From an uncultured Acidobacteriota bacterium (lineage in GTDB: Bacteria; Acidobacteriota; Thermoanaerobaculia; UBA5066), in the NCBI GenBank assembly GCA_903845115.1, contig CAIMWE010000076.1, positions 62,001-126,000 of the forward strand: a stretch of DNA of 64,000 bases. The letters run 5' to 3'. The position numbers and the translations under genes are program-made. The notes under the pieces were generated by a model. It worked only from the letters and a program-made list of their open reading frames with translations. It did not search any database and was not told where the DNA came from. Of this stretch, positions 5,939 through 59,326 are shown one piece after another (position 1 is the first letter of the stretch; each line of letters opens with the position of its first letter).

Positions 5939-6037
5939 CGCGTGGCCCTCCTGCACCCATTCTAGTCACTTCCAGCCCTGCGCGCGCCGTCCGTTCCGAC
6001 CACCCGGCGACCCCCGCCGGGTATCATCCGCCCCGCG

Positions 6038-7459
6038 ATGACCGCTCCCCGTGTCCGCTTCGCCCCGTCCCCGACCGGCTCCCTTCACGTGGGGGGAGCC
6101 AGGACCGCCCTCTACAACTGGCTCTTCGCCCGGCGGCACGGTGGCACCTTCGTCCTGAGGATCGAGGACACCGATGTCGAGCGGAGCCGCCGCGAGCTGA
6201 CGGACCAGATTCTGGACGCCATGACGTGGCTCGGCCTGACGTGGGACGAGGGGCCCTATTTCCAGAGCGAGCGTTCCGCGATCTACCTGGCGGCGGCGGG
6301 CCGGCTCCTGGCCGAAGGGAAGGCCTACCGCGCGTTCGAGACGGCGGAAGAGCTGGAAGCCGCGAGGAAGGCCGGGGAAGCCGGCGGCAAGGTCTACCGG
6401 TACTCCGGAGCGGGCCGGTCTCTCTCCCGGGAGGAGTCCGACACGCGGGCGGCGGCCGGCGAGAGATTCGTCCTCCGGCTCCGGATGCCCGACGAGCCGA
6501 TCGTCGTCCAGGATGCGGTGCAAGGGAGGGCCGAGTTTCTGCCCGAGGCCCTCGACGACTTCATCCTCGTCCGGTCGGACGGGAACCCGGTCTACCACTT
6601 CACCGTCTGCGTGGACGACGTCGAGATGGGGATCACCCACGTCATCCGGGGCGTGGACCACCTTCCGAACACCCCGAAGCACGTCGCCCTTTTCCGGGCC
6701 CTCGGCGCCGAGATCCCGGTCTTCGCCCACCTCGGCATGATCCTGGGACCGGACGGGAAGAAGCTCTCGAAGCGCCACGGCGCGGCCGGGGCCGAGGAGT
6801 TCCGGGCGGCCGGATTCCTGCCGGAAGCCCTGGCCAATTTCCTCGCGCTCCTCGGCTGGTCCCCCGGGGAGGACCGGGAGCGGATGTCGCTCGAGGAGAT
6901 GACGGCCCTCTTCTCGCTGGAGCGGATCGGTCCCTCTCCGTCCCGGTTCGACCACGAGAAGCTGACCTGGCTCAACGGGCAGCTCCTCCAGGCAGTGCCC
7001 CCCCGGCGGCTCCTGGCGCTCCTCGCGCCATTCGGGCTTCCGGCGAGAGACGAGGGGACGCTGGAGCGCGCCGCCCGGCTTCACCTCTCCCGCTGCCGCA
7101 CCCTGGTCGAGGTTTCCCAATCGCTTCGCATCTACGGGGATGACCCTTCCGAATTCGAGGCCGCGGGACTGAAGAAATTCGGCAAGCCCGAGCTGATGAA
7201 GAGCCTTCGCGCCCTCGCCTCCCGGCTCGCCTCGGTGGAGCCGTTCGCGCACGCGGAGATGGAGGAGGCGGCTCGCGCCCTCGCGACCGAGGCCGGGGTG
7301 AGCCTGGGCGCCCTCGCCCAGCCCGCTCGCCTTGCCCTCACGGGCTCGCTCGCTTCCCCCCCCCTGTTCGAGATGATCGAGGTGATGGGGAGGGAGACGG
7401 CCCTGCGGCGGATGCTCGCGTTCGCCGACCGGATCGAGGGCCGGACGGGCGCCAGCTAG
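6038..7459 (+). CDS. gltX: Glutamyl-tRNA synthetase
   Basis: 473-residue class I aminoacyl-tRNA synthetase that charges tRNA-Glu. The HIGH-type motif is HVGG at residues 17-20, after FAPSPTGSL. RIEDTD and DNFILVRSDGNPVYHF-like glutamate-pocket segments follow, and the KMSKS loop appears as KLSKR at 242-246. The C-terminal helical cage has normal length. Only 9 bp separate it from glnS downstream, so the two are cotranscribed. With a separate GlnRS present, this enzyme is likely of the discriminating kind, but sequence alone does not prove that. Confidence 0.97.
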   Translation: MTAPRVRFAPSPTGSLHVGGARTALYNWLFARRHGGTFVLRIEDTDVERSRRELTDQILDAMTWLGLTWDEGPYFQSERSAIYLAAAGRLLAEGKAYRAFETAEELEAARKAGEAGGKVYRYSGAGRSLSREESDTRAAAGERFVLRLRMPDEPIVVQDAVQGRAEFLPEALDDFILVRSDGNPVYHFTVCVDDVEMGITHVIRGVDHLPNTPKHVALFRALGAEIPVFAHLGMILGPDGKKLSKRHGAAGAEEFRAAGFLPEALANFLALLGWSPGEDRERMSLEEMTALFSLERIGPSPSRFDHEKLTWLNGQLLQAVPPRRLLALLAPFGLPARDEGTLERAARLHLSRCRTLVEVSQSLRIYGDDPSEFEAAGLKKFGKPELMKSLRALASRLASVEPFAHAEMEEAARALATEAGVSLGALAQPARLALTGSLASPPLFEMIEVMGRETALRRMLAFADRIEGRTGAS

Positions 7460-7468
7460 AGGAGAGAC

Positions 7469-9178
7469 ATGGAAGACCAGAAGACCCCCGCCGCCCCTGC
7501 ACAGGGGAAAGACTTCATCCGCACGATCATCGACGAGGACCAGAGCACCGGAAAGCACGCGGGCAAGGTCGCGACGCGGTTCCCCCCCGAGCCGAACGGA
7601 TACCTCCACATCGGCCACGCGAAGTCGATCTGCCTCAACTTCGGGGTCGCCCAGGAGTACGGCGGAACGTGCAACCTCCGGTTCGACGACACGAACCCGC
7701 TGAAGGAGGACGTCGAGTACGTCGACTCCATCCAGGCGGACGTCCACTGGCTCGGCTTCGAGTGGGCGGCGATGTACTACGCCTCCGACTACTTCGAGCG
7801 CCTCTACTCGTTCGGGGAGACGCTGATCCGGACGGGCAAGGCGTTCGTCTGCGACCTCTCCGCCGACGACGTCCGCGCTTTTCGCGGGACGCTCACCGAG
7901 CCGGGCCGGAACAGCCCCTTCCGGGACCGCTCCGTCGACGAGAGCCTCGAGCTGTTCCGGAAGATGCGGGCCGGCGGCTTCGAGGACGGCTCGAGGACGC
8001 TCCGCGCGAAGATCGACATGTCCTCGCCCAACATCAACCTCCGGGATCCCGCCCTCTTCAGGATCCGGAAAGCCACTCACCACCGGACGGGCGATGACTG
8101 GTGCATCTACCCGATGTACGACTACGCGCACGCGCTGTCCGACTGGATCGAGGGGATCACCCACTCGCTGTGCACCCTGGAATTCGAGGACCACCGCCCC
8201 CTGTACGACTGGTGCCTCGAGGCGCTGGGGCTCGAGAACCGGCCGCGGCAGATCGAGTTCGCCCGCCTGAACCTGACCTACACGATCCTCTCCAAGCGGA
8301 AGCTCCTGCACCTCGTGACGGGCGGGCACGTCCGCGGATGGGACGACCCCCGGATGCCGACGATCGCCGGACTCAGGCGACGCGGCTTCACGCCGGAGGC
8401 GATCCGGGACTTCTGCAACCGGATCGGCCTCGCGAAGCGGGACAGCCTGGTGGACGTGGCGCTCCTCGAGCATTGCCTCCGGGAGGACCTCAACCGGAGA
8501 GCCCCGCGATTCATGGGCGTCCTCGATCCGCTCCGCGTCGTCCTCACCAACCTCCCGGAGGGAGTGGTCGAGGAGCTGGACGCCGTGAACAACCCCGAGG
8601 ACCCCTCCCAGGGGACCCGGAAGGTCCCGTTCACCCGGGTCCTCCTCATCGAGCGGGACGACTTCCGGGAGGTCCCCCCGCCCAGGTACCACCGGCTCTC
8701 CCCCGGGCAGGAGGTCCGTCTACGCTGGGGATACCTGGTCCGGTGTCAGGAGGTCGTCAAGGACGCCTCCGGGACCGTCACCGAGATCCGCTGCACCTAC
8801 GATCCCGCCACCCGCGGGGGAGACGCCCCGGAGGGACGGAAGGTGAAGGGGACGATCCACTGGGTCTCGGCGGACCACGCCCGCGCCGCGGAGGTGCGTC
8901 TCTACGATCGCCTGTTCGTCGCACCGGAGCCGGACGTCGCCCCCGAGGGTTCGGACTTTCTCTCGAACCTGAACCCGGCGTCGCTCGTCGTCTCGAACGC
9001 CGCCCGCGTGGAGAGGGCCGCCGCGGACGCGCCGCCCGGCGCCTTCTTCCAGTTCGAGAGGCTCGGCTACTTCACGGTCGACCCCGACTCCGGGCCCGAA
9101 CGGCCCGTCTTCAACCGCTCCGTCTCGCTCCGGGACTCGTGGGCGAAGATCGAGAAGAAGACCAGCGCCAGGCGATGA
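7469..9178 (+). CDS. glnS: Glutaminyl-tRNA synthetase
   Basis: 569-residue class I synthetase that charges tRNA-Gln directly. The exact HIGH motif is at residues 47-50 within [17 protein letters not shown]; the KMSKS counterpart is LSKRK at 274-278; the C-terminal anticodon-binding beta barrels are complete. It lies between gltX and a VanZ-like gene whose ATG overlaps its stop. A tRNA-Gln gene lies about 550 bp further on, on the opposite strand. Bacterial GlnRS is patchily distributed and is usually explained by transfer from eukaryotes. Confidence 0.97.
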
Positions 9179-12184: not shown

Positions 12185-13303
12185 TCAGGCCGCGTTCAGA
12201 CCGCGGCAGCACGGTTCGGAGCAGCGGTCGTAGACCGAGCCTCGCTGCCGCGGGGCGAATCCCGCCTCGTGGATCAGCGCGACCATGTCGTCCCTCGTCA
12301 TCCGGTTGTGGGCGCCCGCCGCCGCGACGACGTTCTCCTCGATCATGATCGAGCCCAGGTCGTCGGCTCCGAACAGGAGGGACACCTGCCCGACCTTCTT
12401 TCCCTGGGTGACCCAGGAGCCCTGGAGGTGCGGGACGTTGTCGAGATAGAGGCGGGAGACCGCCAGGGTCCGGAGGTAGTCCGCCCCGCCCGAGACCTCG
12501 ACCTGGCCGTCCAGGGCCGTGTTCTCCTCCTGGAACGTCCACGGGATGAAGGCGGTGAACGAGGCGGCCCCCAGTGCGAGCGACTCGTCCTGGAGGGCCC
12601 GGATGACCTCGAGGTGGTGAACGCGCTCCTCCAGGCTCTCTCCGACGCCGAACATCATCGTGGCCGTGGTCGTCATCCCGAGGCGGTGGGCCTCCCGGTG
12701 GACGAGGGACCACTCCCGGACCGGGGACTTGGTGAGCGCCCAGATCCGCTTGCGCACCTGGTCGTCGAGGATCTCGGCCCCGCCGCCCGGGATCGACATC
12801 AGGCCGGCTCTCTGGAGCCGCGTCAGGACGTCCCGGACGGTCGACCTCTCCTTCTTCACCAGGAACCAGATCTCCGGCGCCGAGAACGCGTGGCGGTGGA
12901 TGGAGGGGTAGCTCGACCTCAGGTAGGAGAGGACCTCCTCGTAGTACCCGAACGGGAGGTCTGCGTGGACCCCTCCCTGCAGCAGGACTCCCGTCCCCCC
13001 CAGCGCGAGCGTCTCGTCCACCTTTCTCCCGATCTCCTCCGCCGGAAGGACGTAGCTGTCGGGATCGCCCACCTTCCGGTAGAAGGCGCAGAACGCGCAG
13101 CGGTAGATGCAGACGTTCGTGTAGTTGATGTTCCGGTCGACCTGGTAGGTGGCCGTCGCCTCCTGCTGAAGGCGGCACCGGACCTCGTGCGCCGCCTGCC
13201 CGAGGTCGAGGAGAGAGGCCTCGCCCAGGAGGCGCACCGCGTCGTCGGGGGTCAGCCGCAAGCCCGACCGCGCCTCGCACAGGATCTCCCGGACGGGACG
13301 CAC
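12185..13303 (-). CDS. mqnC: Cyclic dehypoxanthinyl futalosine synthase (radical SAM)
   Basis: 372-residue radical SAM enzyme of the futalosine route to menaquinone, cyclising dehypoxanthine futalosine. The [4Fe-4S] motif CIYRCAFC supplies C65, C69 and C72. Family segments QGGVHADLPFGYYEE, SIPGGGAEIL and FIPWTFQEENTAL distinguish MqnC from MqnE. The GTG start at 13301-13303 shares one base with the mqnA stop and has GGGAGGG upstream, so the pair is translationally coupled. Confidence 0.93.
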   Translation of the reverse strand: MRPVREILCEARSGLRLTPDDAVRLLGEASLLDLGQAAHEVRCRLQQEATATYQVDRNINYTNVCIYRCAFCAFYRKVGDPDSYVLPAEEIGRKVDETLALGGTGVLLQGGVHADLPFGYYEEVLSYLRSSYPSIHRHAFSAPEIWFLVKKERSTVRDVLTRLQRAGLMSIPGGGAEILDDQVRKRIWALTKSPVREWSLVHREAHRLGMTTTATMMFGVGESLEERVHHLEVIRALQDESLALGAASFTAFIPWTFQEENTALDGQVEVSGGADYLRTLAVSRLYLDNVPHLQGSWVTQGKKVGQVSLLFGADDLGSIMIEENVVAAAGAHNRMTRDDMVALIHEAGFAPRQRGSVYDRCSEPCCRGLNAA

Positions 13304-40287: not shown

Positions 40288-41184
40288 TTACCGCGCCGGC
40301 GTTCCCGAAACGAGAACATCCACGATCCCCATCGCCGAAAAGACGACGGACAGCCAGCCGTTCGCGGTGAAGAAGGCCGCGTTCACCGTCGAGAGGTCGT
40401 CCGGGGAGACGAGCTGGTGCTGCCGGACGAGGAATGCGCCGGCGACGATCACGCCGGCCCCCAGGACGAGACCGCCCGACGCCAGGACGAACACCGCGTA
40501 GAACAGGCCCAGCGCCTGCGCGTGGAGGACGGCGGCCGCCAGAAGCGCCCTTCGGACGCCGAACCTGGCGGGAATCGACCGTAGCCCCTGGCCGCGGTCG
40601 AACGCCTCGTCCTGGAGGCTGTAGATGACGTCGAACCCGGCCACCCAGAAGAGGACCGCCAGGCCGAGGACGACCGGGAGGAGGCCGAACTCCCCGCGGA
40701 CGGCGACCCACGCTCCGACCGGCGCGATCGCCAGCGAGAGCCCGAGGACGGCGTGGGCTCCCCAGGTGAACCGTTTCGTGAAGGAGTAGCCGAGGATCGC
40801 GGCGAGGGCCGCCGGCGAGAGCGCCAGGCAGAGCGGGTTCAACCGCCAGGCCGCCAGGACGAAGACCGCCGACGACGACGCGCAGAACGCGGTGGCCTGA
40901 GCCACGGAGATCGTCCCCGCCGGGATCTCCCGGCTCGCCGTTCGCGGGTTTGCCGCGTCGATCCGGCGGTCGACGATCCGGTTGAACGCCATCGCGGCGG
41001 AGCGGGCGCCGACCATCGCCACCAGGATCCAGACGAGCTTCTCTCCGGCGGGGAAGCCGCCTGCGGCGAAGAAAGCCGAGAGGAGCGCGAAGGGAAGGGC
41101 GAACAGCGTGTGCTCGAACTTGACGAGGGAGAAGTAGTCCTCGACCTTCGGGCGCGTCTGGAGGAGATCGGGAGCCTGCGTCAC
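40288..41184 (-). CDS. ubiA: UbiA-family prenyltransferase (4-hydroxybenzoate/futalosine-pathway type)
   Basis: 298-residue membrane enzyme that attaches a polyprenyl chain to an aromatic acid. The first Asp motif is NRIVDRRIDAANPRT; the second is FDVIYSLQDEAFDRGQGLRSIP. About eight hydrophobic segments. Because mqnA and mqnC are in the window, it likely acts in futalosine-route menaquinone synthesis (MqnP role), with the nearby ubiX-like gene supplying the decarboxylase cofactor; this pathway assignment is inference. Confidence 0.9.
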   Translation of the reverse strand: MTQAPDLLQTRPKVEDYFSLVKFEHTLFALPFALLSAFFAAGGFPAGEKLVWILVAMVGARSAAMAFNRIVDRRIDAANPRTASREIPAGTISVAQATAFCASSSAVFVLAAWRLNPLCLALSPAALAAILGYSFTKRFTWGAHAVLGLSLAIAPVGAWVAVRGEFGLLPVVLGLAVLFWVAGFDVIYSLQDEAFDRGQGLRSIPARFGVRRALLAAAVLHAQALGLFYAVFVLASGGLVLGAGVIVAGAFLVRQHQLVSPDDLSTVNAAFFTANGWLSVVFSAMGIVDVLVSGTPAR

Positions 41185-47187: not shown

Positions 47188-49104
47188 ATGAATCGACTGA
47201 TCGTCGGGACCTCGGGACACATCGACCACGGCAAGAGCGCTCTCGTGAAGGCGCTGACGGGGACCGATCCCGACCGCCTCCCGGAGGAGAAGGCCCGGGG
47301 GATCACGATCGACCTCGGCTTCGCCCACTCCGAGTGGGACGGGATCGTCTTCTCGTTCGTCGACGTCCCGGGCCACGAACGGTTCGTCCGGACGATGGTG
47401 GCCGGCGCCGTGGGACTCGACGTGGCCCTCCTCGTCGTCGCCTCGGACGACGCGGTCATGCCCCAGACGCGCGAGCACCTCGCGATCCTCTCCCTCCTGG
47501 GAGTCCGGGCGGGCGTCATCGCCAGGACGAAGAGCGACCTCGTCGACGGGGAGACCGGGGCCCTCGTGGACGACGAGGTGAGGGAGCTGGTCAAGGGAAC
47601 CTTCCTCGAGGCGGCCCCGATCGTGCCCGTCTCGTCGGTGACGGGAGCCGGGATCCCGGCGCTCCGGACCGCCCTGGCGGAGACCGCGCGGGGGCTACCG
47701 GCTCGCGACCCCGGGGCCCGCGTCGTCCGCCTCTTCGTCGACCGCGTCTTCACGATCCGGGGATTCGGCCCCGTCGTCACCGGGACCCTCGACGGCGGCC
47801 GGATCGCGACCGACGACCGGCTCGTGCTCTGGCCCCCCGGGAAGACGGTCCGCGTGAGGCGTGTCGAGGTCCACGGGGCCGAGCGGGAGGAGGCCTCCGC
47901 CGGAGAGAGGACGAGCCTGAACCTGGCCGGGGTCGAACGCGAGGAGCTCGTCCGGGGGCAAGCGCTCGCGGGCGAGGAGGTTCTCGTCCCCTCGTCGATC
48001 CTCACCGCCGAGATCCGGCTCCTCCCGTCGGTCGGCGCCCCGATTCCCCACGGAACCCGCGTCCGGGTCCACCACGGGACGCGGGAGGTCGGCGCCCGCC
48101 TCTCGGTCGTCACGCCGGCCGGCCGGCAGGAGGCCCTCCGCGGCGTCGCCCCGGGCGAGACGGCCCGTGTCCAGCTCCTCTGCGAGGAGCCGCTCGCCGC
48201 TCTCCGCGGCGACCGCTTCATCCTCCGGCGCCCCTCCCCGGTGGAGACGCTCGGGGGAGGACGGATCCTGGATACCGGCCGGCGGCGGGCCACCCGGAAG
48301 ACCGCCCCCCGGGAGGAAGTCCTGGCGCTCCTGGCTCGGGGATCCGACGAGGAGATCGCCGCGCTCTTCCTCGAGGAGGAGGGAGCCCGCGGTCTGGACC
48401 CCGGCCCCTTCGCCAGGCGGCTCGGCGTTCCGGGGCCGCGAGGCCGCTCCCTGGCCGACCACCTCGTCGCCGAAGGAAAGGCGCTCCGGCTCGCGACCGG
48501 GACTCTGGTGTCGGCCGGCGCCTCGTCGCGGATGGCGGAGCACGCGGCCGGTATCCTCGCCGGGCATCGCCGCTCGGGCGCTCCGTCGCCCTTCCTGTCG
48601 CGGAGCGAATTCCTCGAGCGGTTCGGCCGCGGGCTCTCCTCGCCGCTCCAGGACGGCTGGCTGGCGCTGCTCGCGGCGGGCGGGAAGCTGACGCTCGCCG
48701 CCGACCAGGTCGGCCCTCCCGGCGCCAGGGGAGGGGAGGTGGCCGAGGGGTCCAGCCCGTTCGCCGCGAAGATCGAGGAGGCGTATCGGAAGGCCCTCTT
48801 CGAGGCGCCCAGGAGCCTCGACCTGGCGAAGGCGCTGGGGACGAAGCCACAGGTCGTGGAGGGGCTGGTCGGCCACCTCCTGAAGACCGGCGCCCTCCTC
48901 CGTCTCTCCCCCGACGTGATCGTCCACCGGGACACCGTTGCTGCCGCGGCGGCGAAGCTGGCGGCCGTCCGGGGTCAGACACTCGGCGTGGCGGCCTTCC
49001 GCGACCTTCTCGGCCTCACGAGGAAGAATCTGATCCCGCTCCTCGAGCACCTCGACCGCGCGAAACGGACGCGGCGGAGCGGGGACGTCCGCGTCGTTCT
49101 CTGA
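47188..49104 (+). CDS. selB: Selenocysteine-specific elongation factor SelB
   Basis: 638-residue translation GTPase that brings Sec-tRNA to UGA codons with a SECIS hairpin. G1 is GHIDHGKS (residues 10-17), G2/G3 include GITIDLGFA and DVPGHERF, G4 reads TKSD. Domains II-III follow, and the C-terminal winged-helix region (about residues 400-638) binds SECIS RNA. Presence implies the organism makes selenoproteins; selA, selD, tRNA-Sec and any clear selenoprotein are not in this window. Confidence 0.95.
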   Translation: MNRLIVGTSGHIDHGKSALVKALTGTDPDRLPEEKARGITIDLGFAHSEWDGIVFSFVDVPGHERFVRTMVAGAVGLDVALLVVASDDAVMPQTREHLAILSLLGVRAGVIARTKSDLVDGETGALVDDEVRELVKGTFLEAAPIVPVSSVTGAGIPALRTALAETARGLPARDPGARVVRLFVDRVFTIRGFGPVVTGTLDGGRIATDDRLVLWPPGKTVRVRRVEVHGAEREEASAGERTSLNLAGVEREELVRGQALAGEEVLVPSSILTAEIRLLPSVGAPIPHGTRVRVHHGTREVGARLSVVTPAGRQEALRGVAPGETARVQLLCEEPLAALRGDRFILRRPSPVETLGGGRILDTGRRRATRKTAPREEVLALLARGSDEEIAALFLEEEGARGLDPGPFARRLGVPGPRGRSLADHLVAEGKALRLATGTLVSAGASSRMAEHAAGILAGHRRSGAPSPFLSRSEFLERFGRGLSSPLQDGWLALLAAGGKLTLAADQVGPPGARGGEVAEGSSPFAAKIEEAYRKALFEAPRSLDLAKALGTKPQVVEGLVGHLLKTGALLRLSPDVIVHRDTVAAAAAKLAAVRGQTLGVAAFRDLLGLTRKNLIPLLEHLDRAKRTRRSGDVRVVL

Positions 49105-49106
49105 AT

Positions 49107-49877
49107 CTAGGGGCGGCCGGCCTCGATCCGGCCCAGGAGACGGAGCATCCCGTCCAGGATCGTCAACGGGTGCGGCGGGCAGCCCGGGACGAAGAGGTCG
49201 ACCGGCACGATCCCGATCGCTCCGTCGTGCTGGTCCGCCATCCCGGCGTACGGCCCGCCCGAGATGGCGCACGCCCCGACGGCGATGACGATCCTCGGGT
49301 CGGGGACCGCGGCCCAGGTCTTCTCGAGGGCGAGGCGCATGTTCTCCGTCACCGGCCCGGTCACGAGGATCCCGTCGGCATGCCGCGGCGAAGCGACGAT
49401 CTGGATCCCGAATCGCCCGAGGTCCCAGCCGATCGTGGAGAGGACGTTCACGTCCGCCTCGCAGCCGTTGCAGCCGCCCGCGCTCACCTGCCTCAGCTTC
49501 AACGACCTCCCGAAGAGCCGGAGCAGCTTCTCGTCGAGGGCCTTCGCCAGGACGAGCTCCCGCCCCGCGGTGACGAGTCCCTCGCGAGTCCGTGTCGCCA
49601 GCCGGTAGTCCCGCGAGTAGCCGATCGCCCCCTCGGGGCAGCTCCGCTCGCACTCCGGACAGAAGAGGCACCGGCCGAGGTCGATCGTGACGGAGGGGCC
49701 GACCTGGATGGCGTCGGTGGGGCAGGCGTCGGCGCACTCGCGGCATTTTTCCGGGCACTTCGAGGCGTCGACCGCCGGGGCTCCCCGGAAGGCGGCCGGC
49801 AGCTCCGGGGCCGGGCCGTCCGGCCAGGCCATCGTCCGGTGCCCCTGGTGGAGGCGGGCTTTCAGGGATCGGATCAT
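49107..49877 (-). CDS. Ehr complex small subunit: 2[4Fe-4S] ferredoxin fused to NuoB/HyfI-like domain
   Basis: 256 residues. The N-terminal ~100 residues carry two cubane motifs, C-x3-C-x2-C-x3-C (CPEKCRECADAC) and C-x2-C-x2-C-x3-C (CLFCPECERSC), as in HycF/HyfH. The rest is the NuoB/HyfI electron-transfer subunit with GGCNGCEADV, GACAISGG and VPGCPPHP supplying the proximal cluster. In other group 4 hydrogenases these are separate proteins. Last gene of the operon, convergent with selB. Confidence 0.9.
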   Translation of the reverse strand: MIRSLKARLHQGHRTMAWPDGPAPELPAAFRGAPAVDASKCPEKCRECADACPTDAIQVGPSVTIDLGRCLFCPECERSCPEGAIGYSRDYRLATRTREGLVTAGRELVLAKALDEKLLRLFGRSLKLRQVSAGGCNGCEADVNVLSTIGWDLGRFGIQIVASPRHADGILVTGPVTENMRLALEKTWAAVPDPRIVIAVGACAISGGPYAGMADQHDGAIGIVPVDLFVPGCPPHPLTILDGMLRLLGRIEAGRP

Positions 49878-49887
49878 CGGCCGCTCC

Positions 49888-51414
49888 TCACAGGTCGTGC
49901 CCGCAGTACGAGAGGTTGAAGCTCTTGTTGCAGAGCGGAAAGTCCGAGATCTGGCCTTCCCGGAGCGCGAGCGCCAGTCCGAACCAGTTGTGGAACGACG
50001 GGTCGGTCACCTTGTACCGCGCAAACCGCCCGTCCGGACCCGTGATGCCGACGTGGCAGATCTCGCCGCGCCACCCCTCCGTCATCGACACGGCCAGGCT
50101 CCCGGGCGCCAGTGCCCCGACGGCGGCGCGGACCGGGCCGGCCGGCAGCGTCGCCAGCCTCTCCAGGATGAACGCGATCGACTGCTGGATCTCCGTCCAC
50201 CGGACCATCGCCCGGCCCTGCACGTCGCCCGTCTCGGCGGTGGCGAGCTGCCACGCGACGTCGCGGTAGATGCCCGCCGGATGGTCCCGCCGGACGTCCC
50301 GGTCGACCCCCGAGGCGCGGGCTGCCGGCCCCACCAGGCCGATCTCCCGGGCGTCCTTCTCTGTGACGATCCCCGCCCCCTCGAAGCGGGCGACGACCGT
50401 GGAAGTCGCGAAGAGGAGCTCGACCGCCCCGCGCACGTCGTCGCGTGCCGTCTGCAGCCGGTTCCGGAGCTGGTTCACCCCCTCCGCGTCGAGGTCGAAC
50501 CCCGTCCCCCCTGGCCGGACGAGCCCCCGTCCGAACCGGTTCCCGCAGAGGAACGCGGTCATGTTCAGGAAGTCGCCCCGGATCCGGCCACAGAACGACA
50601 TCGTCGGGAGATACCCGACGTCCCCCGCGAGCGCCCCCAGGTCGCCCGTGTGGTTGGCGAGCCTCTCCAGCTCGAGGGCGACGCCCCGGAGCGCCTCGGC
50701 CCTCGGTGAAGGCCGGGCCCCGGCGAGGCTCTCCAGCGCCTGGCAATAGGCGGCCGTGTGTCCGATCGTCGTGTCGCCCGCCAGTGTCTCCATCCAGGGG
50801 ATCGTCCGCTTCCCGGGCCCTCCGACGAGGGCCGCCTCGATTCCCCGGTGCTGGTAGCCGAGGGAGATCTCCAGGTGGAAGACCTCCTCGCCGTGGCACT
50901 GGAACCGGAAGTGCCCCGGCTCGATCACTCCGGCGTGGACCGGACCGACCGCGACTTCGTGCACCTCCTCGCCCTCGACGCGAAAGAAGTTCGTCACGCC
51001 GGGAACGATCGGCTCCGTATCGGCCCGCCCCCACGCGTCGCGGCCCTTCCGCCAGGAGCGGTGGAACCGGACCGGCTTCAGCCAGGGATGGCCCTTCGGC
51101 CGGATGCCGAGCTGCTCCGCCATCTCCCGCTCGAACAGGTGCGCTTCGGGACAGAGAGGCGTCAGCGAGGGGTAGTCGTCCTCCGCGAGCCGGCACCGGC
51201 CGACGAGCAGCCTTCCGTCCGCGTCGTCCGCGAGGACCACGACCAGGACGACATCCCCGCGCCGTTCGTCCGGAAGGCCGAACAGCGAGGCGATCCGCCG
51301 CCCGTTTCCGACCTCCTCGAGGATCTCGCCCCGGAAGAGCTCGAAGCTCAACTCGCCCACGGACGAGAGCGGGACCGCTTCCGGGTTCCGGACCCTCTTG
51401 AACCTGGCTCTCAC
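49888..51414 (-). CDS. Ehr complex large subunit, HycE/HyfG-like (NuoC-NuoD fusion), no [NiFe] ligands
   Basis: 508 residues from a GTG that overlaps the upstream stop (GTGA). Residues ~1-135 are a NuoC-like 30-kDa domain (CPEAHLFEREMAEQLGI); the rest is the NuoD/large-subunit fold (LGYQHRGIEAAL, HTGDLGALAGDVGY). Where hydrogenases have the first CxxC ligand pair it reads ETLAGDTTIGH (209-219), with no cysteine. The C-terminal end is CNKSFNLSYCGHDL, with C495 and C504 but no DPCxxC. It therefore cannot hold a normal [NiFe] site; H2 chemistry is unlikely. Confidence 0.88.
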   Translation of the reverse strand: MRARFKRVRNPEAVPLSSVGELSFELFRGEILEEVGNGRRIASLFGLPDERRGDVVLVVVLADDADGRLLVGRCRLAEDDYPSLTPLCPEAHLFEREMAEQLGIRPKGHPWLKPVRFHRSWRKGRDAWGRADTEPIVPGVTNFFRVEGEEVHEVAVGPVHAGVIEPGHFRFQCHGEEVFHLEISLGYQHRGIEAALVGGPGKRTIPWMETLAGDTTIGHTAAYCQALESLAGARPSPRAEALRGVALELERLANHTGDLGALAGDVGYLPTMSFCGRIRGDFLNMTAFLCGNRFGRGLVRPGGTGFDLDAEGVNQLRNRLQTARDDVRGAVELLFATSTVVARFEGAGIVTEKDAREIGLVGPAARASGVDRDVRRDHPAGIYRDVAWQLATAETGDVQGRAMVRWTEIQQSIAFILERLATLPAGPVRAAVGALAPGSLAVSMTEGWRGEICHVGITGPDGRFARYKVTDPSFHNWFGLALALREGQISDFPLCNKSFNLSYCGHDL

Positions 51415-52844
51415 GGGTGGCCTCCGAAGCTGGCCGCGGCCCGTTCCAGCAGGCTCCGGAGCGGAGCCGGAATCCAGAGCCCGAGCAGGAGGACGAGGGC
51501 CATGGACAGGACGATGGGGCCGGTCGTCCGGAGCGTGTCGCGGAACGGAGTCGCCTTGGCCTCGTCGGACGGAGTTCCCTGGACGGCCGCGAGGACGGTC
51601 CCGCCCATGCCGATGAAGATGATGCCGAGGAGGACGAGGAAGGCGGTCGCCACCTTCCAGTGCCCGAGCGAGAAGGCGGCGTTCAGGATGGTGAACTCGC
51701 TGACGAAGGGACCGAACGGGGGCGAGCCCGTGACGGCGAAGAATCCGGCCAGGAAGAGGCTCCCCGAGATCGGGAGCCGGGCGATCGCGCCCGAGACCTC
51801 GTCGAGGTGCTTGCTCTTGTACGCGCGGTGGATGTTCGCGGCCGCCAGGAAGAGGACCCCTTTCGTCAGGCCGTTGTTGAGGGAATGGAGGATCGCGCCG
51901 TAGAGGCCGGCCCCCCCGATCCCCGTTCCGATGACCAGGATCCCCATGTGCTCCACGCTCGAGTAGGCGAGCATTCGCTTCAGGTCCCGCTGGCGGATCA
52001 CGAAGACGGCGGCGACCGCCATCGACGTCAAGCCGAAGAGGATCAGGAGCTCCCGCGCGAAGACCCCCTCGCCGCCGGCGTCCACGATCCGGTAGACGCG
52101 CAGGAGGGCGAGGAAGGCGCAGTTCGTGAGGCCTCCGGCCAGGAGAGCGCCGACGAGGCCGGGCGCCTCGCCGTACGCGTCCGGCTTCCAGGTGTGCATC
52201 GGCGCCAGCCCCATCTTCGTCCCGTATCCGACGAGCAGGAGGACGAACCCCGCCCGGAGCCAGGGCCGGGAAAAGTTGGCCGCGTTCTCGAGCAACGTGG
52301 GGAAGAGGAGCGACGACTCTCCGACGCCCAGGTAGGCCGAGTACGCGAGGAAGAGCGACCCGAGCAGGGCCACCGCGATCCCGACCGACCCGATCATCAG
52401 GTACTTCCAGGTCGCCTCGAGCGAGTGGGCGGTCCGGTTGAAGTAGATGAGCGGTGCGGTCGCGAGCGTCGTCGCTTCCATCGCGACCCACATCAGCCCG
52501 AGGTGCTGCGAGAGGATGAGGAGCGACGTCATCGAGAGGAAGACCAGCATCCCGGCGCAGACGATCCGGTTCGGCCGGTCGATCCGGACCTCCAGGTAGC
52601 CCGGCGCGTAGAGGGCGCAGATCAGGAAGAGCGTGCTGACGATGCCGAGGGTCACCCCTCCTAGGGGGTCGAGCTGCAGCCAGACTCCGTAGGCGACCTT
52701 CTCCATGCCGGCCAGGGCGAACAGGGTGAGGGCGAGGTGGACCACGGCCACCGCCGGGAGGAGAAGCGGGCGGTGGCGATCCGACGGGATCACCCACGCG
52801 ACGGCCGCCGCCAGGAGGGGGACGAAGATCAGCGCCAGCGGCAT
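51411..52844 (-). CDS. Ehr/hydrogenase-4 component F-like (HyfF, NuoN/MrpD antiporter type) subunit
   Basis: 477 residues, about 14 transmembrane helices. The antiporter core includes WVAMEATTLATAPL, the Lys/His-bearing TKMGLAPMHTWKPDAYGEAP and RDLKRMLAYSSVEHMGILV, then SPPFGPFVSEF. This family pumps protons or sodium in complex I and Mrp. Next to HyfE- and HyfG-like genes, as in hyf operons. Confidence 0.9.
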   Translation of the reverse strand: MPLALIFVPLLAAAVAWVIPSDRHRPLLLPAVAVVHLALTLFALAGMEKVAYGVWLQLDPLGGVTLGIVSTLFLICALYAPGYLEVRIDRPNRIVCAGMLVFLSMTSLLILSQHLGLMWVAMEATTLATAPLIYFNRTAHSLEATWKYLMIGSVGIAVALLGSLFLAYSAYLGVGESSLLFPTLLENAANFSRPWLRAGFVLLLVGYGTKMGLAPMHTWKPDAYGEAPGLVGALLAGGLTNCAFLALLRVYRIVDAGGEGVFARELLILFGLTSMAVAAVFVIRQRDLKRMLAYSSVEHMGILVIGTGIGGAGLYGAILHSLNNGLTKGVLFLAAANIHRAYKSKHLDEVSGAIARLPISGSLFLAGFFAVTGSPPFGPFVSEFTILNAAFSLGHWKVATAFLVLLGIIFIGMGGTVLAAVQGTPSDEAKATPFRDTLRTTGPIVLSMALVLLLGLWIPAPLRSLLERAAASFGGHP

Positions 52845-52848
52845 CGCG

Positions 52849-53490
52849 TCAGTCCTTCAGGTCCGACAGGTAGTGGGTGTCGAGCGAGGAGAACTCGCTC
52901 TGGATGTGATTCAGGACGATCCCCATGATGAAGATGCCGGCGAAGAGGTCCAGCAGGACTCCGGCCTCGACGAGGAACGGCATCGCCTCGATCAGGAGGA
53001 GGCCGAAGATGAAGATCCCGTTCTCCAGCATCAGGTAGCCGACGACCTGGGTGATGGCCTTACGCCGGGTCGTCAGGACGAGAAAGCCCGAGAGCATCGT
53101 CGCGAGGGACGCCGGGACCAGGAGGCTGCCCGCGTGCTCGGGGGCGAGAGGCAGGCTCCCGGCGAACAGGAGCGCGAGGCCGCTTCCGACCGCACAGAGG
53201 AAGAGGGAGGGGACGAAGCCGACGTACGGCTCGACCTCGTGGCGGATCTTGACGTGGCGGATCGCCTGGAAGAGGAAGCCGGGGACGACGAGTCCCTTGA
53301 CGACCGCGGCGCCCAACGCCATCAGGATCGCGCGCGACCCCGGCTCCCGGTGGACGAGGAGCGGGAGGACGGAGAGGAGCGCCCCCTGGACCGCGGCCGT
53401 CCGGATGCACACCCGCAGCTCGCGGGACCCGAGGATCACGAAGTTCGAGAGGATGATCAGGACGAGGATCAGGTCGGCAGACTGCGTCAT
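52849..53490 (-). CDS. Ehr/hydrogenase-4 component E-like (HyfE) subunit
   Basis: 213 residues, about six transmembrane segments, beginning LILVLIILSNFVILGSREL. The C-terminal stretch ENGIFIFGLLLIEAMPFLVEAGVLLDLFAGIFIMG resembles NuoK, with buried Glu residues that complex I uses in proton transfer. Small gaps on both sides (4 and 7 bp) place it firmly in the operon. Confidence 0.87.
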   Translation of the reverse strand: MTQSADLILVLIILSNFVILGSRELRVCIRTAAVQGALLSVLPLLVHREPGSRAILMALGAAVVKGLVVPGFLFQAIRHVKIRHEVEPYVGFVPSLFLCAVGSGLALLFAGSLPLAPEHAGSLLVPASLATMLSGFLVLTTRRKAITQVVGYLMLENGIFIFGLLLIEAMPFLVEAGVLLDLFAGIFIMGIVLNHIQSEFSSLDTHYLSDLKD

Positions 53491-53497
53491 CGTCGGT

Positions 53498-54406
53498 TCA
53501 CCGGATCAGCAGGATCATGCCGAAGGCGGACAGGAGGCAGGCCGTCACGAGGAGCTGCGGGATCCGGATCATGCGGAGCCGGGCGATCACCGACTCGACG
53601 ACCCCTACGACGACGGCCAGGAGGAACATCCCGGAGAGGAACGCGACCCAGTTGACCAGGGGCGAGGAGGCTCCGCACGGGACGACGGTCCGGATGAGGA
53701 GCGTCCCCAGGACGAACAGCTTCAGCGAGGAGCCGTAGAGGATCAGGCCGAGGGCGGGCCCGCTGTGGTCCAGCACCATCACCTCGTGGATCATCGTCAG
53801 CTCGAGGTGGGTGTTCGGGTCGTCGAACGGGATCCGGCTGTTCTCGGCCAGCAGGACGACGAACCAGCCCGCCACCACGAGGACCAGCGACGCGCCGGCG
53901 GTGATCCAGCCGGTCGTCCAGGGCGCCGAGAGCATCGACGAGAGGGAGAGGGTCCCCGAGATCCGGCCGAGGACGAGGAGGCCGAAGAAGAGCGCCGGCT
54001 CCGCGAGGCAGGCGAAGCTGACCTCGCGCGCCGCCCCCATTCCCTCGAACGCCGATCCGGTGTCCAGGGCCGCGGCCGCCGTGAAGAAACGGGACAGCGC
54101 GAACAGGTAGGCGAAGAGGACCAGGTCGCCCGAGAACGAGACGGGGGCGCGGCTCCCGCCGAACGGGACGAGCAGCGAGGCGGCCAGCGGGGCGACGACC
54201 GCCAGGACCGGGCCGACGAGGAAGACCCAGGTCGTGGTCGTGCTGAGGACCATCTCCTTCCGGAAGAGGCGGAGCAGGTCGTACCAGGGCTGCAGGACCG
54301 GCGCCCCGGTCCGCCCCGCGAAGGCGGCCTTGGTCCGGCCGATCACGCCGAGGAGGAGCGGCGGCACGGTCAGGACGACGACGAGGTGGAGGACTGTTTC
54401 GAGCAT
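53498..54406 (-). CDS. Ehr/hydrogenase-4 component C-like (HyfC, NuoH-type) subunit
   Basis: 302 residues, about eight transmembrane helices. Typical NuoH/HyfC sequence: GRTGAPVLQPWYDLLRLFRKE early, and the conserved ENSRIPFDDPNTHLELTMIHEVMVLDHSGP near the middle, with the acidic residues of the quinone/proton channel. This is the subunit that joins the soluble arm to the membrane arm. Confidence 0.92.
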   Translation of the reverse strand: MLETVLHLVVVLTVPPLLLGVIGRTKAAFAGRTGAPVLQPWYDLLRLFRKEMVLSTTTTWVFLVGPVLAVVAPLAASLLVPFGGSRAPVSFSGDLVLFAYLFALSRFFTAAAALDTGSAFEGMGAAREVSFACLAEPALFFGLLVLGRISGTLSLSSMLSAPWTTGWITAGASLVLVVAGWFVVLLAENSRIPFDDPNTHLELTMIHEVMVLDHSGPALGLILYGSSLKLFVLGTLLIRTVVPCGASSPLVNWVAFLSGMFLLAVVVGVVESVIARLRMIRIPQLLVTACLLSAFGMILLIR

Positions 54407-54418
54407 TCCGTCCCTTTC

Positions 54419-56389
54419 CTAGACCTGGAACAGGAGGACGACGATCGTGAGGGCGACGTAGAAGAGGTACAGCTGGATCTGACCGTGCTGGACGCGGCGG
54501 CCCAGGGCCGCGAGCTCCGCGCCGGCCCGGAAGACCGGGATGAGGAGGCGGTGGAGGACGGCGTCGTCGACGTGGCTGGCGAACCGGAAGGGTTTCGCGA
54601 ACGGCCGCTCGAGCCGGTTCGCGGGAGTCACCGGCAGGAGGGCCCACCGGAAGAGCCCGACCGTCCAGTCCGCGAAGGACGACGAGGTGTACTGCATCGT
54701 CGGGCCCGGCGCCGCGTAGCCGCAGCTCCAGGTTCCGTCCCGCTTCGCCCCGCGCGCGAGGCGTCGGACGGCCAGCAGGCTGGAGGCGAGGACGACCGCC
54801 AGCCCGACGAGGAAGATCGAAAGGGGGCGGAGCGAGGCGACCGCGGCCAGCCGGGGAAGCGCCGGGCGCGCCGCCGGAGCGGCGGCGGCCACCGCGATCG
54901 CCGGGTCGAGGAACGGCGTCACGAGCATCGGCGCCAGGCCGATGGCGAAGCAGAGGGCCGCCAGCGCGGCCATCGGCGCCCACATCCAGGCCGGCTCGTC
55001 GGTGACGCGGGGGCCCGCGCCCCGCGGCTCGCCGAGGAAGACGATGCCGAAGGCCTTGACGAAGCAGGCGAGCGCGAGCGAGCCGATCAACGCGAGGGCA
55101 GGCACGGCGAGCGCGCCCCACGGCCAGGCGGAGGCCGCCCGCTTTCCGACCCCGTCGAGGAGGCCGAGGTAGAGGAACCACTCGCTCACGAAGCCGTTCA
55201 GGGGCGGAAGGCCGCTGATCGCGACGGCGCCCACCGCGAAGCAGGCGCCGGAGACCGGGAGGACCCGGAGCAGCCCTCCCATCCGGTCCATCTCGCGGGT
55301 CCCCGAGGCCCGGACGACCGCCCCGGAACCGAGGAAGAGAAGGGACTTGAACAGCCCGTGATTGACCACGTGGAGCAGTCCGCCTCCGAATCCGAGGACC
55401 ATCCAGGCCGGGTTTCCCGTGGACCGGCCGACGAGTCCGAGGCCCAGGCCGATCGCGATGATGCCGATGTTCTCGACGCTGTGGTACGCGAGCAGCCGCT
55501 TCAGGTCGTGCTGCCCCAGGGCAAACGCCACCCCGAGGACGCCCGAGACGACGCCCAGAACGAGGATCCCTTCCCCCCAGGCGACCGGGGGGTCCGGGAA
55601 GAGGGACTGGATCCGGACGAGTCCGTAGATCCCCGTCTTGATCAGGACCCCGGACATGAGGGCCGACACGTGGCTCGGCGCCGCCGCGTGGGCGCCGGGG
55701 AGCCAGAAGTGGAGCGGCATCAAGCCGGCCTTGAGACCGAAGGCCGCGACGGCGAGCCAGAAGATCGCCTTCCCGGTCCCGGACGCCGCGAGGCCCGCGG
55801 GCAGCGGGCCGAGGACGAAGGAGCCGGTCGCCCCGTAGATCAGGGCGAGCAGACCGAACAGGCAGAGCGTCCCGACGTGGGTCGTCACGAGATAGAGGAG
55901 GCCGGCGCGACGGGCTTTTCCGTCGTTCCACTCCGTCGAGATCAGGAAGAACGCCGCCAGCGCCATCACCTCCCACGCCCCGAGGAAGAGGAGGAGGTTG
56001 CGGGCCGCGAAGACGAGGACGAGGGAGGCCGTCAGGATGCCGTAGAAGACGCGGAGCCTCCGCCAGGAAGGGTGCAGGCTCTCCGCCCAGTAGACGTCGC
56101 CGAAGAAGGCGCCCGCCGCCGAGACGACGAAGAGGGGGCCGAGGAACAGGGCCGAGAGCGGGTCGACGCTCGCCAGGAACGGCCCTCCGGCGATCCCCCA
56201 CGGGACCTCCACCGCGCCCCGCTGCCCGGGAAGGAAGGCCAGGGCCGCACCCGTCAGTCCCACGAGGGCGGCGGCCGCCATCAGCCACGACTCGGGCGAG
56301 GGCCCAGCCGGCCGCGGACGCCTCGCCAGCGACGGGAGACCGCTGAGCGCCGCGAGGACCGCGGCGGCGAGGACCAGGGAGGTGCTCAT
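54419..56389 (-). CDS. Ehr/hydrogenase-4 component B-like subunit, second copy (NuoL/MrpA type)
   Basis: 656 residues, about 16 transmembrane helices. Antiporter core: GAWEVMALAAFFLISTEW, FGLKAGLMPLHFWLPGAHAAAPSHVSALMSG, and QHDLKRLLAYHSVENIGIIAIG with the conserved Lys and His. A C-terminal part resembles the HyfB tail (WSCGYAAPGPTMQYTSSSF). The ATG at 56387-56389 overlaps the upstream subunit's stop. It is clearly a paralogue of the next gene. Confidence 0.92.
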   Translation of the reverse strand: MSTSLVLAAAVLAALSGLPSLARRPRPAGPSPESWLMAAAALVGLTGAALAFLPGQRGAVEVPWGIAGGPFLASVDPLSALFLGPLFVVSAAGAFFGDVYWAESLHPSWRRLRVFYGILTASLVLVFAARNLLLFLGAWEVMALAAFFLISTEWNDGKARRAGLLYLVTTHVGTLCLFGLLALIYGATGSFVLGPLPAGLAASGTGKAIFWLAVAAFGLKAGLMPLHFWLPGAHAAAPSHVSALMSGVLIKTGIYGLVRIQSLFPDPPVAWGEGILVLGVVSGVLGVAFALGQHDLKRLLAYHSVENIGIIAIGLGLGLVGRSTGNPAWMVLGFGGGLLHVVNHGLFKSLLFLGSGAVVRASGTREMDRMGGLLRVLPVSGACFAVGAVAISGLPPLNGFVSEWFLYLGLLDGVGKRAASAWPWGALAVPALALIGSLALACFVKAFGIVFLGEPRGAGPRVTDEPAWMWAPMAALAALCFAIGLAPMLVTPFLDPAIAVAAAAPAARPALPRLAAVASLRPLSIFLVGLAVVLASSLLAVRRLARGAKRDGTWSCGYAAPGPTMQYTSSSFADWTVGLFRWALLPVTPANRLERPFAKPFRFASHVDDAVLHRLLIPVFRAGAELAALGRRVQHGQIQLYLFYVALTIVVLLFQV

Positions 56390-58392
56390 CCTCCCCACCT
56401 CTGACGCACGGCCGACCAGGCGAGCAGTCCGACGAGGACGATCAGGATGTAGAGGAGGTAGATGCCGATGCGGCCCTGCTGGAGCCAGCGGAGGCGGTTC
56501 AGGCGGTCGGCCCACGACGAGAACACGGGCGCGAAGAGGCGGGCGTGAAACGGGTCCGGTGTCGAGGCGGAGAACCGTGCGATCACCGGGAAGAAGCCGC
56601 GGGGCTCCTGCCGCCGGACGCTCGGCCCCAGCCTCCTGGGGAGGAGCTGCTCTCCGAGCCACTGGCCCAAGGAGCGGCCGGTGTACTGCATCCGGGAGGT
56701 CGGCGCGGCGTATCCGCAGTCCCAGGTCGGTCCGGTCCGGAAGCCCTCCGCGGACCGGACCAGGCGGAGCGCCACGAGGCCGACCGCCAGCGACCCGGTC
56801 AGGAAGAGGCCGAACACGCTGATCCAGCCGAGCGGCGCCACCTCGAGGATCCGGATCCCCGTCTTCGCGAGGGCCGGGCGCCAGGCGAAGGCCGCCCGCT
56901 CCAGGAACGGGGCGAGCCAGGGCGCCCCCAGGCCCAGGACGAGACAGGCGGCCGCGAGCGCCAGGACCGGACGCGCCATTCCCGGGCGTTCGTGAGGAAC
57001 CGCTCCCGGCGCGCTCCGCGGCGACCCGAGGAAGACCGTCCCGAAGACCTTCACGAAGCTGGCCGTGGCGAGCGCCCCGGTCGTCGCCAGGACCGGGATG
57101 GCGAGCCCGACCAGCGCGAACGCCGGCTGGCCGTGCGTCCAGATGGAGAAGAGCGCGACGTAAATCAGCCACTCCGAGACGAAGCCGTTCAGCGGAGGGA
57201 GCCCCGAGACCGCGGCGGCTCCCACCCCGAACGCGAGTCCGGTCCGCGGAAGGGCCGGGAGCAGCCCGCCCATCCGGTCCATCTCCCGCGTCCCGGACGC
57301 GTGGACGACCGACCCGGCCGAGAGGAAGAGGAGAGCCTTGAAGATCGAGTGGTTCCAGACGTGGAAGATCGCTCCCGCGAGGCCGAGGAGGGCCCACGCG
57401 GGCTGACCTTCGGCCACGCCGAGGAGCGCCGTCCCCACGCCGACGTAGACGATGCCGATGTTCTCGATGCTCGAGTAGGCCAGCAGCCGCTTCAGGTCTC
57501 CCTGCCCGACCGCGAGGGCGACCCCGGTCAACGCGGTCACGGCCCCGGCGACGATCGTGACGGCGCCCCACCACGAGGGAATGGCCGGCATCAGGGAGGT
57601 GATCCGGAGGAACCCGTACACGCCCATCTTCAGCATCACGGCGGACAGGACGGCGGAGACGTGGCTGGGGGCGCTGGAATGCGCCCCGGGAAGCCAGAAG
57701 TGCAGCGGCACCAGCCCGGCCTTGAAGCCGAACCCGACGAGGGCGAGGACGAAGACGATCGCACTGGTGCCGGCGGGAAGCCGGCTCTCTTCCCACGGGA
57801 CCCAGGAGAAGCTGCCGGTCGACCGGCCCAGGAGCAGGACCATCGCCGTGAGGACGAGGGTCCCCGTGTGCGTGGCGATCAGGTAGGTCCACCCCGCCGA
57901 CCGGACCGGCTCCTTGCGGTCCTCGGTGGTCACGAGGAAGTAGGCGGAGAGAGCCATCGTCTCCCACGCCACCAGGAAGAGGACCCCGTCGCGGGCCATC
58001 GTGACGATCGCCATCGACCCGGTCAGGAGGCCGAAGAAGAACCGCAGCTTCTGCCCGTCGTCGGGGTGCTCGGCCTGGGGCCAGTACGAGAGGCCGTAGA
58101 CCGGCGCGACGACCGAGAGAAGGAAGAGCGGCAGCAGGAAGGCGGCCGTCAGGGGATCGGCCGCCAGGACGGCCCCCGACCGCGGGACGATGGACCAGCC
58201 CAGCGACAGACCTGGCGCCGGAAGTCCGGCCAGGACGGCGAGCGAGCCCCCCAGGCCGAGCACGCCCCCCGCGGCGGAGAGAAGCGCGGCGATTCGCTCG
58301 CCGAGCGCACGGCTCCGGGGATAGAACAGTCCCGGGATTCCGCTCGACGCGAGGAGGAGGGACGCCCCGACGAGGAGAGCTGAAACGGTCAA
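56386..58392 (-). CDS. Ehr/hydrogenase-4 component B-like subunit, first copy (NuoL/MrpA type)
   Basis: 668 residues, about 16 transmembrane helices; first gene of the complex operon. It shares with the following gene the segments FGFKAGLVPLHFWLPGAHSSAPSHVSAVLSAV, GDLKRLLAYSSIENIGIVYVG and WDCGYAAPTSRMQYTGRSL. Two such subunits plus a HyfF-like one give three potential ion channels. Four bp separate it from the TonB-C-like gene upstream. Confidence 0.92.
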   Translation of the reverse strand: MTVSALLVGASLLLASSGIPGLFYPRSRALGERIAALLSAAGGVLGLGGSLAVLAGLPAPGLSLGWSIVPRSGAVLAADPLTAAFLLPLFLLSVVAPVYGLSYWPQAEHPDDGQKLRFFFGLLTGSMAIVTMARDGVLFLVAWETMALSAYFLVTTEDRKEPVRSAGWTYLIATHTGTLVLTAMVLLLGRSTGSFSWVPWEESRLPAGTSAIVFVLALVGFGFKAGLVPLHFWLPGAHSSAPSHVSAVLSAVMLKMGVYGFLRITSLMPAIPSWWGAVTIVAGAVTALTGVALAVGQGDLKRLLAYSSIENIGIVYVGVGTALLGVAEGQPAWALLGLAGAIFHVWNHSIFKALLFLSAGSVVHASGTREMDRMGGLLPALPRTGLAFGVGAAAVSGLPPLNGFVSEWLIYVALFSIWTHGQPAFALVGLAIPVLATTGALATASFVKVFGTVFLGSPRSAPGAVPHERPGMARPVLALAAACLVLGLGAPWLAPFLERAAFAWRPALAKTGIRILEVAPLGWISVFGLFLTGSLAVGLVALRLVRSAEGFRTGPTWDCGYAAPTSRMQYTGRSLGQWLGEQLLPRRLGPSVRRQEPRGFFPVIARFSASTPDPFHARLFAPVFSSWADRLNRLRWLQQGRIGIYLLYILIVLVGLLAWSAVRQRWGG

Positions 58393-58396
58393 CGTC

Positions 58397-59326
58397 TCAA
58401 CCGGCTGGTGAACCTTTCAGGTTCTTCTTCAGAAGGCGCCTCGCCGACTCCTTGGCCCGGACGATCTCGTACTCCGCGACGAGGTCGAGGTTCACGTACG
58501 CGCGCTGGGGAGTCTCTCCGTCGAGCGCCGGGGTGAATTTCCACCGCGCCGCCAGCGTCCGGACCCACGCCAGGATGAACGGCTCCAGAGAGGGGCCGGT
58601 CGGGATGATCCGCTCGACGGCGCCGGCCGGCGAGACCTGCAGGATCGCCGAGAACCGGGATTTCAGGCGGATCGGCTCGAGCTTCCACGGGGTCTTCTTG
58701 AGGCCCGGGAGGAAGTCGACCTCCTCGATCGAGACGACCCCGGGCTCCGGGTCGTCCGGCTCGCGCGGGAACCGGAGGAGGCCTTCCTCGCCGACGGGCT
58801 CTCGCAGGACGACCGGGATCGCGTCGTTCCGGCCGACGGGGGCGACCGAGAAGGAGGTGAAGACGGGCCGCTCCAGGTCGATGACGAGATCCAGGCCGTA
58901 CGCGGCCCACGTCCGGACCGCCTTTCCGTCCTTCCGGGCCGGGTCGAACACCCAGCGCACGGCGATTTCCGCGGCCGCGGCGGCGATCCCGCGAAGGGGA
59001 GGGTCCACGACCTCGGCCTGGACGACCTTCCCGGTCTCGTCGATCTTCAGCGCGAAGAAGAGCGTCGCCTTCCCCCGGTAGTCCTGGGCGGCCGGGACCT
59101 CCGTCAGCTTCGGCGGCCTCTCGAACGATCGGGACAGGGGGTGGAAGGGAGCCACTTCCGCCGGCTCCAGCCCGGGCGGACCCAGGATCACCTCGACGAC
59201 GACCTCCTGGGCGCCGTCGCCCTTCTTCCTCTCGGCCTGCTGCGCCAGCCCCGGGTTCGAGGCGGTGCCGAGCAGGGTCCCCGCGAGGAGCGTCGCGAGT
59301 CGGGCGGTGAGAAAGGGCCGGAACAT
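58397..59326 (-). CDS. Exported TonB C-terminal-domain protein
   Basis: 309 residues with a signal peptide (TLLAGTLLGTASNPGLA). Residues ~85-160 (YRGKATLFFALKIDETGKVVQAEVVDPP... RWVFDPARKDGKAVRTW) match the TonB C-terminal fold, which contacts outer-membrane partners; a second similar unit seems to follow (ILQVSPAGAVERIIPTGPSL... KFTPALDGETPQRAYVNLDL). There is no obvious inner-membrane anchor of the TonB type. It is 4 bp upstream of the Ehr-like operon on the same strand; a link is possible but unproven. Confidence 0.8.
   Translation of the reverse strand: MFRPFLTARLATLLAGTLLGTASNPGLAQQAERKKGDGAQEVVVEVILGPPGLEPAEVAPFHPLSRSFERPPKLTEVPAAQDYRGKATLFFALKIDETGKVVQAEVVDPPLRGIAAAAAEIAVRWVFDPARKDGKAVRTWAAYGLDLVIDLERPVFTSFSVAPVGRNDAIPVVLREPVGEEGLLRFPREPDDPEPGVVSIEEVDFLPGLKKTPWKLEPIRLKSRFSAILQVSPAGAVERIIPTGPSLEPFILAWVRTLAARWKFTPALDGETPQRAYVNLDLVAEYEIVRAKESARRLLKKNLKGSPAG

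Follow-up and report, generated by a model that had tools for sequence, protein, structure and literature searches.

The seven contiguous genes on the minus strand of the window (a 64,000-nucleotide stretch of DNA from an uncultured Acidobacteriota bacterium) at positions 49107-58392 encode a complete Ehr complex, an acidobacterial member of an already described kind, with a large subunit that carries none of the ligands of the [NiFe] site. On the evidence of its conserved residues, the complex appears to be an active enzyme rather than a dead hydrogenase. We favor, at a probability of about 50%, a functional Ehr that acts as a reversible, ion-translocating ferredoxin oxidoreductase, whose acceptor would most likely be menaquinone. 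Ehr complexes without [NiFe] ligands are already in the literature, as the earlier note on this DNA stated: they have been described in Geobacter, where Ehr is encoded by GSU0739-0745 (PMC7894505), in Nitrospira (PMC12342949; PMC10284858) and in Margulisbacteria (PMC6349859). The same note held their electron donors, acceptors and ion specificity to be unsettled, in agreement with published statements that Ehr function is unknown. Apparently new here are the signature of residues that replaces the metal site, the selection test, the count of formate dehydrogenase neighbors and the mutual exclusion of Ehr and Rnf; Coppi 2005 and Marreiros 2013 may hold part of this.

The open reading frames lie where they had been placed, and their Pfam and NCBIfam families bear out the proposed subunit set of two HyfB-like, one HyfF-like, one HyfE-like and one HyfC-like membrane protein, a NuoC-NuoD large subunit and a ferredoxin-NuoB small subunit. 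The genes run B1-B2-C-E-F-L-S, all on the minus strand, at spacings of -4 to +12 bp (gaps of 4-12 bp or overlaps of 4 bp). B1 (56386..58392; 668 aa, TTG start) is a HyfB-like antiporter subunit of the EhrA type (NCBIfam hydrogenase 4 subunit B, 2.1e-163), and B2 (54419..56389; 656 aa; same family, 3.3e-156) is a second HyfB-like subunit, 46% identical to the first. C (53498..54406; Pfam NADHdh, 1.5e-33) is a HyfC/HycD/NuoH-like membrane anchor with an E-channel, E (52849..53490; NCBIfam hydrogenase 4 membrane subunit, 1e-22) is HyfE-like, and F (51411..52844; NCBIfam hydrogenase 4 subunit F, 1.5e-96) is a HyfF-like antiporter subunit. The large subunit L (49888..51414; 508 aa) is NuoC-NuoD/HyfG-like and of the EhrL type (Pfam Complex1_49kDa, 7.5e-38; Complex1_30kDa, 2.7e-8); its GTG start at 51414 gives a 4 bp overlap with the HyfF stop. 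In the small subunit S (49107..49877; EhrS type), a 2x[4Fe-4S] ferredoxin domain is fused to a NuoB/HycG-like domain (Pfam Oxidored_q6, 1.8e-26, and 4Fe-4S domains). This union of a Hyf-type membrane arm and a ferredoxin/NuoB small subunit in one operon is that of the Geobacteraceae Ehr (EhrA-1, EhrA-2, EhrB, EhrC, EhrL, EhrS), which is also without [NiFe] ligands; the gene order B(B)-C-E-F-L-S is equal in Geomonas limicola (locus L107), and the large subunits are 58-61% identical. The same strand also encodes, 4 bp upstream of B1 and behind polA, a protein with a TonB_C domain and a leader-like N-terminus (58397-59326), which has no counterpart beside Ehr in the relatives examined.

Both CxxC pairs are missing from the large subunit, exactly as claimed: the former first motif (50758..50790, minus strand) reads ETLAGDTTIGH at residues 209-219, and the former second motif (49891..49923, minus strand) reads SFNLSYCGHDL at residues 498-508. 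When a profile of 21 relatives was aligned to E. coli HycE (7z0s, E 1.3e-102), Thermus Nqo4, MbhL and others, a comparison of the kind that the earlier note had proposed, none of the four [NiFe] cysteines was present. HycE C241, C244, C531 and C534 correspond to A212, T215, S502 and G505, and Cys504 does not fall at a ligand position; three alignments rule out overlooked ligands or a misplaced alignment. The large subunit therefore lacks the two ligand pairs of a group 4 [NiFe] hydrogenase, and PF00374 matches in the host genome occur only at other loci.

What stands in place of the metal site is highly conserved. Across 77 aligned Ehr large subunits (60 from clade 1, 17 from clade 2), the four ligand positions hold A/S, T/S (rarely A, H or N), S and G, the single exception being a clade-1 row that retains Cys at the first. 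Asp214, inside the former first CxxC, is invariant (77/77), where the hydrogenases compared have I, V or A; Asn500 occupies the position of the canopy Asp529 in 76/77, and Trp448 replaces the Pro preceding the canopy Arg in 74/77. None of the three is found in HycE, HyfG or ligand-bearing relatives. As judged from this alignment, the pocket signature is a near-fixed set of new residues replacing the metal site. The residues of the HycE proton relay are retained (H160, E165, which is equivalent to MbhL Glu21, H219, H255, R366, E408 and R449), as is Y503, with Tyr or Phe at position 219 in three clade-2 rows. D214, N500 and W448, together with the kept relay residues E165, H219 and R449, are specific targets for point mutation, for which Geobacter and Geothrix are tractable hosts. 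An AlphaFold2 model of the large subunit (pLDDT 86.6, pTM 0.89) found HycE as its top PDB match in Foldseek (TM 0.86, 26% identity), followed by complex I NuoCD; since no entry was closer than HycE, the PDB copy searched holds no Ehr structure.

The earlier note's statement that all electron-transfer cysteines of the small subunit remain holds for 12/12 (C41, C45, C48, C52; C70, C73, C76, C80; C136, C139, C203, C233), which fit three [4Fe-4S] clusters and recur in most of 76 relatives. Their first motif has the form Cx3Cx2Cx3C; the pair at the proximal cluster shows the CxxC spacing of hydrogenases instead of the CC of complex I, in a loop equal in length to that of HycG. In the membrane arm, the HyfC-like subunit retains the E-channel residues Y100, R106, E128, E136, E188, E202 and E208, and HycD E199 and E201 are replaced by N198 and H200. 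B1 (E144, K224, K255, E407) and B2 (E140, K220, K251, E403) each keep the TM5 Glu, TM7 Lys, TM8 Lys and TM12 Glu, with an ND3-type loop Cys at C559 and C556, respectively. F (E123, K210, N241, E383) keeps Glu, Lys and Glu; its TM8 residue is Asn, at a position where relatives show Ser, Asn or Thr. The TM7 Lys, and with it the TM5-TM7 Glu-Lys pair, is gone from E. coli HycC (PMC9474812), whereas B1, B2 and F all retain the pair. The retention of these residues predicts three complete or near-complete ion channels.

Like E. coli Hyf/Hyc, the complex has subunits of the B, C, E, F, G, H and I types, with the Hyc proton relay and the greater part of the E-channel retained; among solved structures, HycE comes closest to its large subunit. 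It differs from Hyf/Hyc in lacking the [NiFe] cysteines, HyfA, HyfD and HyfJ, in its extra HyfB, and in the fusion of HyfH to HyfI. With complex I (NuoD/Nqo4) it has the fold and the antiporter channels in common, and neither has [NiFe] ligands. However, the operon encodes no NADH module (NuoEFG), the tandem CC at cluster N2 is a CxxC, I164 and G213 stand where Nqo4 has its quinone residues H38 and Y87, and the canopy Asp, strictly kept in complex I (PMC9474812), is Asn. Complex-I-type quinone chemistry is thus unsupported by conserved residues.

We infer ferredoxin as the donor, menaquinone as the acceptor, ion pumping and reversibility. Reduced ferredoxin would pass electrons through the ferredoxin domain, by way of its two [4Fe-4S] clusters, to the proximal [4Fe-4S] cluster of the NuoB-like domain, and from there to a small carrier in the former [NiFe] cavity, beside Asp214, His219, Arg449 and Asn500. 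The redox step would be relayed via the β1-β2 loop (H160, E165) and the HyfC E-channel into the B1, B2 and F channels; run in reverse at the expense of the ion gradient, the complex would oxidize the carrier and make reduced ferredoxin from quinol. The model is supported by the conserved cluster cysteines and HycG-like proximal loop, by the retained proton relay, E-channel and antiporter residues, and by the operon's want of HyfA/HycB together with the absence of relatives of the MopB queries beside 108 Ehr loci. It draws further support from the distribution of Rnf, a ferredoxin-oxidizing ion pump. Of 297 sampled genomes of the host phylum, 62 contain Ehr and 33 contain RnfC (over cut-off), and none contains both, against 6.9 expected (P 0.0003). 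The exclusion persists at genus level (P 0.009) but fades at family level (P 0.17), which weakens this support; it may reflect two alternative ferredoxin-linked pumps, and lifestyle is also a possible cause. The host genome has six 2-oxoacid:ferredoxin oxidoreductase loci, which would supply the donor side of the model; as a marker of Ehr such enzymes proved uninformative, being nearly universal in the phylum (276/297 genomes). On the acceptor side, the window contains genes for MqnC (12185-13303, over the curated cut-off) and a UbiA/MqnP-like prenyltransferase (40288-41184), by which menaquinone synthesis through the futalosine route is indicated. The greater abundance of Geobacter Ehr on formate than with hydrogen (PMC7894505) and the presence of Ehr in Nitrospira (PMC12342949) would fit a reverse supply of ferredoxin. 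Against the model, neither a donor nor an acceptor is encoded next to the window's complex, and the quinone residues and canopy Asp of complex I are missing from it. Should Ehr link ferredoxin to quinones reversibly, this would explain ferredoxin balance in organisms without Rnf and, in the reverse direction, provide them with ferredoxin from quinol for CO2 fixation.

The near-fixed pocket residues also suit another reading, which we consider possible and rather less probable: that Ehr reduces a small, non-quinone substrate in a remodeled cavity in which Asp214, Asn500 and Trp448 form the new site. In its favor, all three are near-invariant in Ehr, neither HycE, HyfG nor any of the ligand-bearing relatives has them, and the quinone residues and canopy Asp of complex I are missing. 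A pocket rebuilt around Asp214 might then, equally tentatively, take a substrate other than H+, sulfane sulfur or a complex-I-type quinone, and such an Ehr would add a fourth type of chemistry to the complex I superfamily, one that drives three ion channels. The neighborhoods, however, link no candidate substrate enzyme to Ehr, and the fold and membrane anchor would also suit a quinone pocket.

A third proposal has the soluble arm bind a formate dehydrogenase, so that electrons from formate enter the complex. It was put forward for Margulisbacteria from genome content (PMC6349859), and is favored by the abundance of Geobacter Ehr on formate, by the selB gene that adjoins the operon (47188-49104, convergent with it) and by a selenocysteine formate dehydrogenase in the host genome. 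We nonetheless regard it as improbable. The partner search, by BLAST with a limited query set over neighborhood stretches of differing length, found a MopB/formate dehydrogenase relative beside 0/108 Ehr loci, compared with 4/6 hydrogenase loci; one weak match (L051) sits within a complex I cluster. Pfam and NCBIfam searches likewise found no HyfA/HycB-type subunit, the ferredoxin subunit on the formate dehydrogenase side, in the operon, so that neither hallmark of a formate hydrogenlyase is present there or in the 108 neighborhoods. The host enzyme itself is FdnG-type (genome G000, contig C25; locus L192, about 5900-8999), and its gene has an in-frame TGA at the U of RVUHGPTVASLA. Its Tat-type leader (MTLSRRGFLKAG) and FdnH-type neighbor suggest that it probably faces the periplasm, where it would feed the quinone pool, in keeping with the ferredoxin-menaquinone model. 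These data argue against formate dehydrogenase as a general Ehr partner. A functional link between Ehr and SelB is similarly unsupported, since selB is convergent and is accounted for by the selenocysteine FdnG-type enzyme elsewhere in the genome.

It is very improbable that Ehr reduces sulfane sulfur in the manner of MBS from Pyrococcus furiosus (6u8y), which belongs to the same superfamily and has likewise lost its [NiFe] site: the proximal cluster of MBS has three Cys in a motif three residues shorter (PMC7684303) and MBS has no equivalent of MbhL E21, unlike Ehr, with its four cysteines (C136, C139, C203, C233), full-length HycG-like CxxC loop and E165.

Relatives, with genes called by an in-house script, come from the phylum sample and from a scan of GTDB species genomes. 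In the phylum sample, 44 of the 62 Ehr genomes carry clade 1 and 18 clade 2. The GTDB scan confirmed at least 583 stretches, from which 80 loci were kept. They derive from Verrucomicrobiota, Planctomycetota, Myxococcota, Thermodesulfobacteriota (Geobacter, Geomonas, Desulfovibrio), Spirochaetota, Elusimicrobiota, Omnitrophota, Chloroflexota, Nitrospinota, Fibrobacterota, Gemmatimonadota and others, so that a complex first described in Geobacter spans more than 10 phyla, iron reducers and nitrifiers included; conservation over this range excludes chance resemblance. B(B)-C-E-F-L-S is the usual gene order in clade 1, and of the 108 loci 67 have one B copy and 29 have two, as counted within stretches that differ in length. 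In a large-subunit tree built without either motif region and rooted with NuoD as outgroup on a long branch, clades 1 and 2 group together (support 95/91) inside the group-4 hydrogenases, and clade 1, with Geobacteraceae L089 and L107, is supported at 100/100; a quick tree with the motifs included recovered the same Ehr group. This nesting suggests that the [NiFe] site was probably lost from an ancestral hydrogenase. The nearest ligand-bearing relatives, L063, L064 and L172, join Ehr next (86/81; larger group 100/100). These Ehr-like hydrogenases are about 40% identical, share with Ehr the order S-L-F-E-C-B and an NKSF motif before the second ligand pair, and retain CGxC, CYxC and a Glu at the canopy position, none of which the window's Ehr has. 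All three carry the four ligands, and L063 and L064 have no C-terminal extension after CTDR; a comparable ligand-bearing case is EhrL of Desulfotomaculum ruminis (PMC3569383). Outside the Ehr clade but within the same phylum, three further large subunits (L069, L183, L186) are without ligands, reading AGST and ATFGLS at the former motifs and having no Asp214; at L069 the large-subunit gene is accompanied by B, S, F, E and C genes. They may record a second, independent loss of the [NiFe] site.

Ehr is under purifying selection in its relatives: dN/dS is 0.11-0.22 for close pairs of Geothrix-group large subunits (pairwise Nei-Gojobori, dS 0.2-0.4; one genus group). Missense mutations found in ehr genes of Geobacter after prolonged growth on an anode were taken to mean that Ehr is non-functional (PMC13194489), a verdict contradicted by the low dN/dS and the near-fixed residues; to be without hydrogenase activity is not to be without function. 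We accordingly reject as scarcely credible the notion of a decayed hydrogenase under relaxed selection, for which the missing ligands and those mutations could be cited, given the low dN/dS, residues near-invariant across more than 10 phyla, intact genes in fixed order and the detection of Ehr proteins in Geobacter (PMC7894505).

In about half of the 108 loci, the Ehr operon begins with, or has close to its beginning, a gene for a regulator with HTH_17 and PTS_EIIA_2 domains (L054:3941-4630, L144:2391-3092 and about 50 further loci); it adjoins ehr in Geomonas, unlike in the window, and has no match in the host genome. DabA adjoins a single Ehr locus (L106) and has no match in the host genome, which speaks against inorganic carbon as a general Ehr function; at L106 an antiporter gene and a gene for a SulP-PII fusion also adjoin Ehr L-S. 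SulP anion transporters are found near Ehr in at least six loci (L133:2414-4252, L131:3-1775, L106:10383-12371, L053:7068-8720, L099:19063-21303, L078:1-933), although SulP genes are sparse in the phylum, with any present in 37/99 genomes. In L133 the SulP gene is directly upstream of Ehr on the same strand, and a link to inorganic carbon or anion transport is possible.
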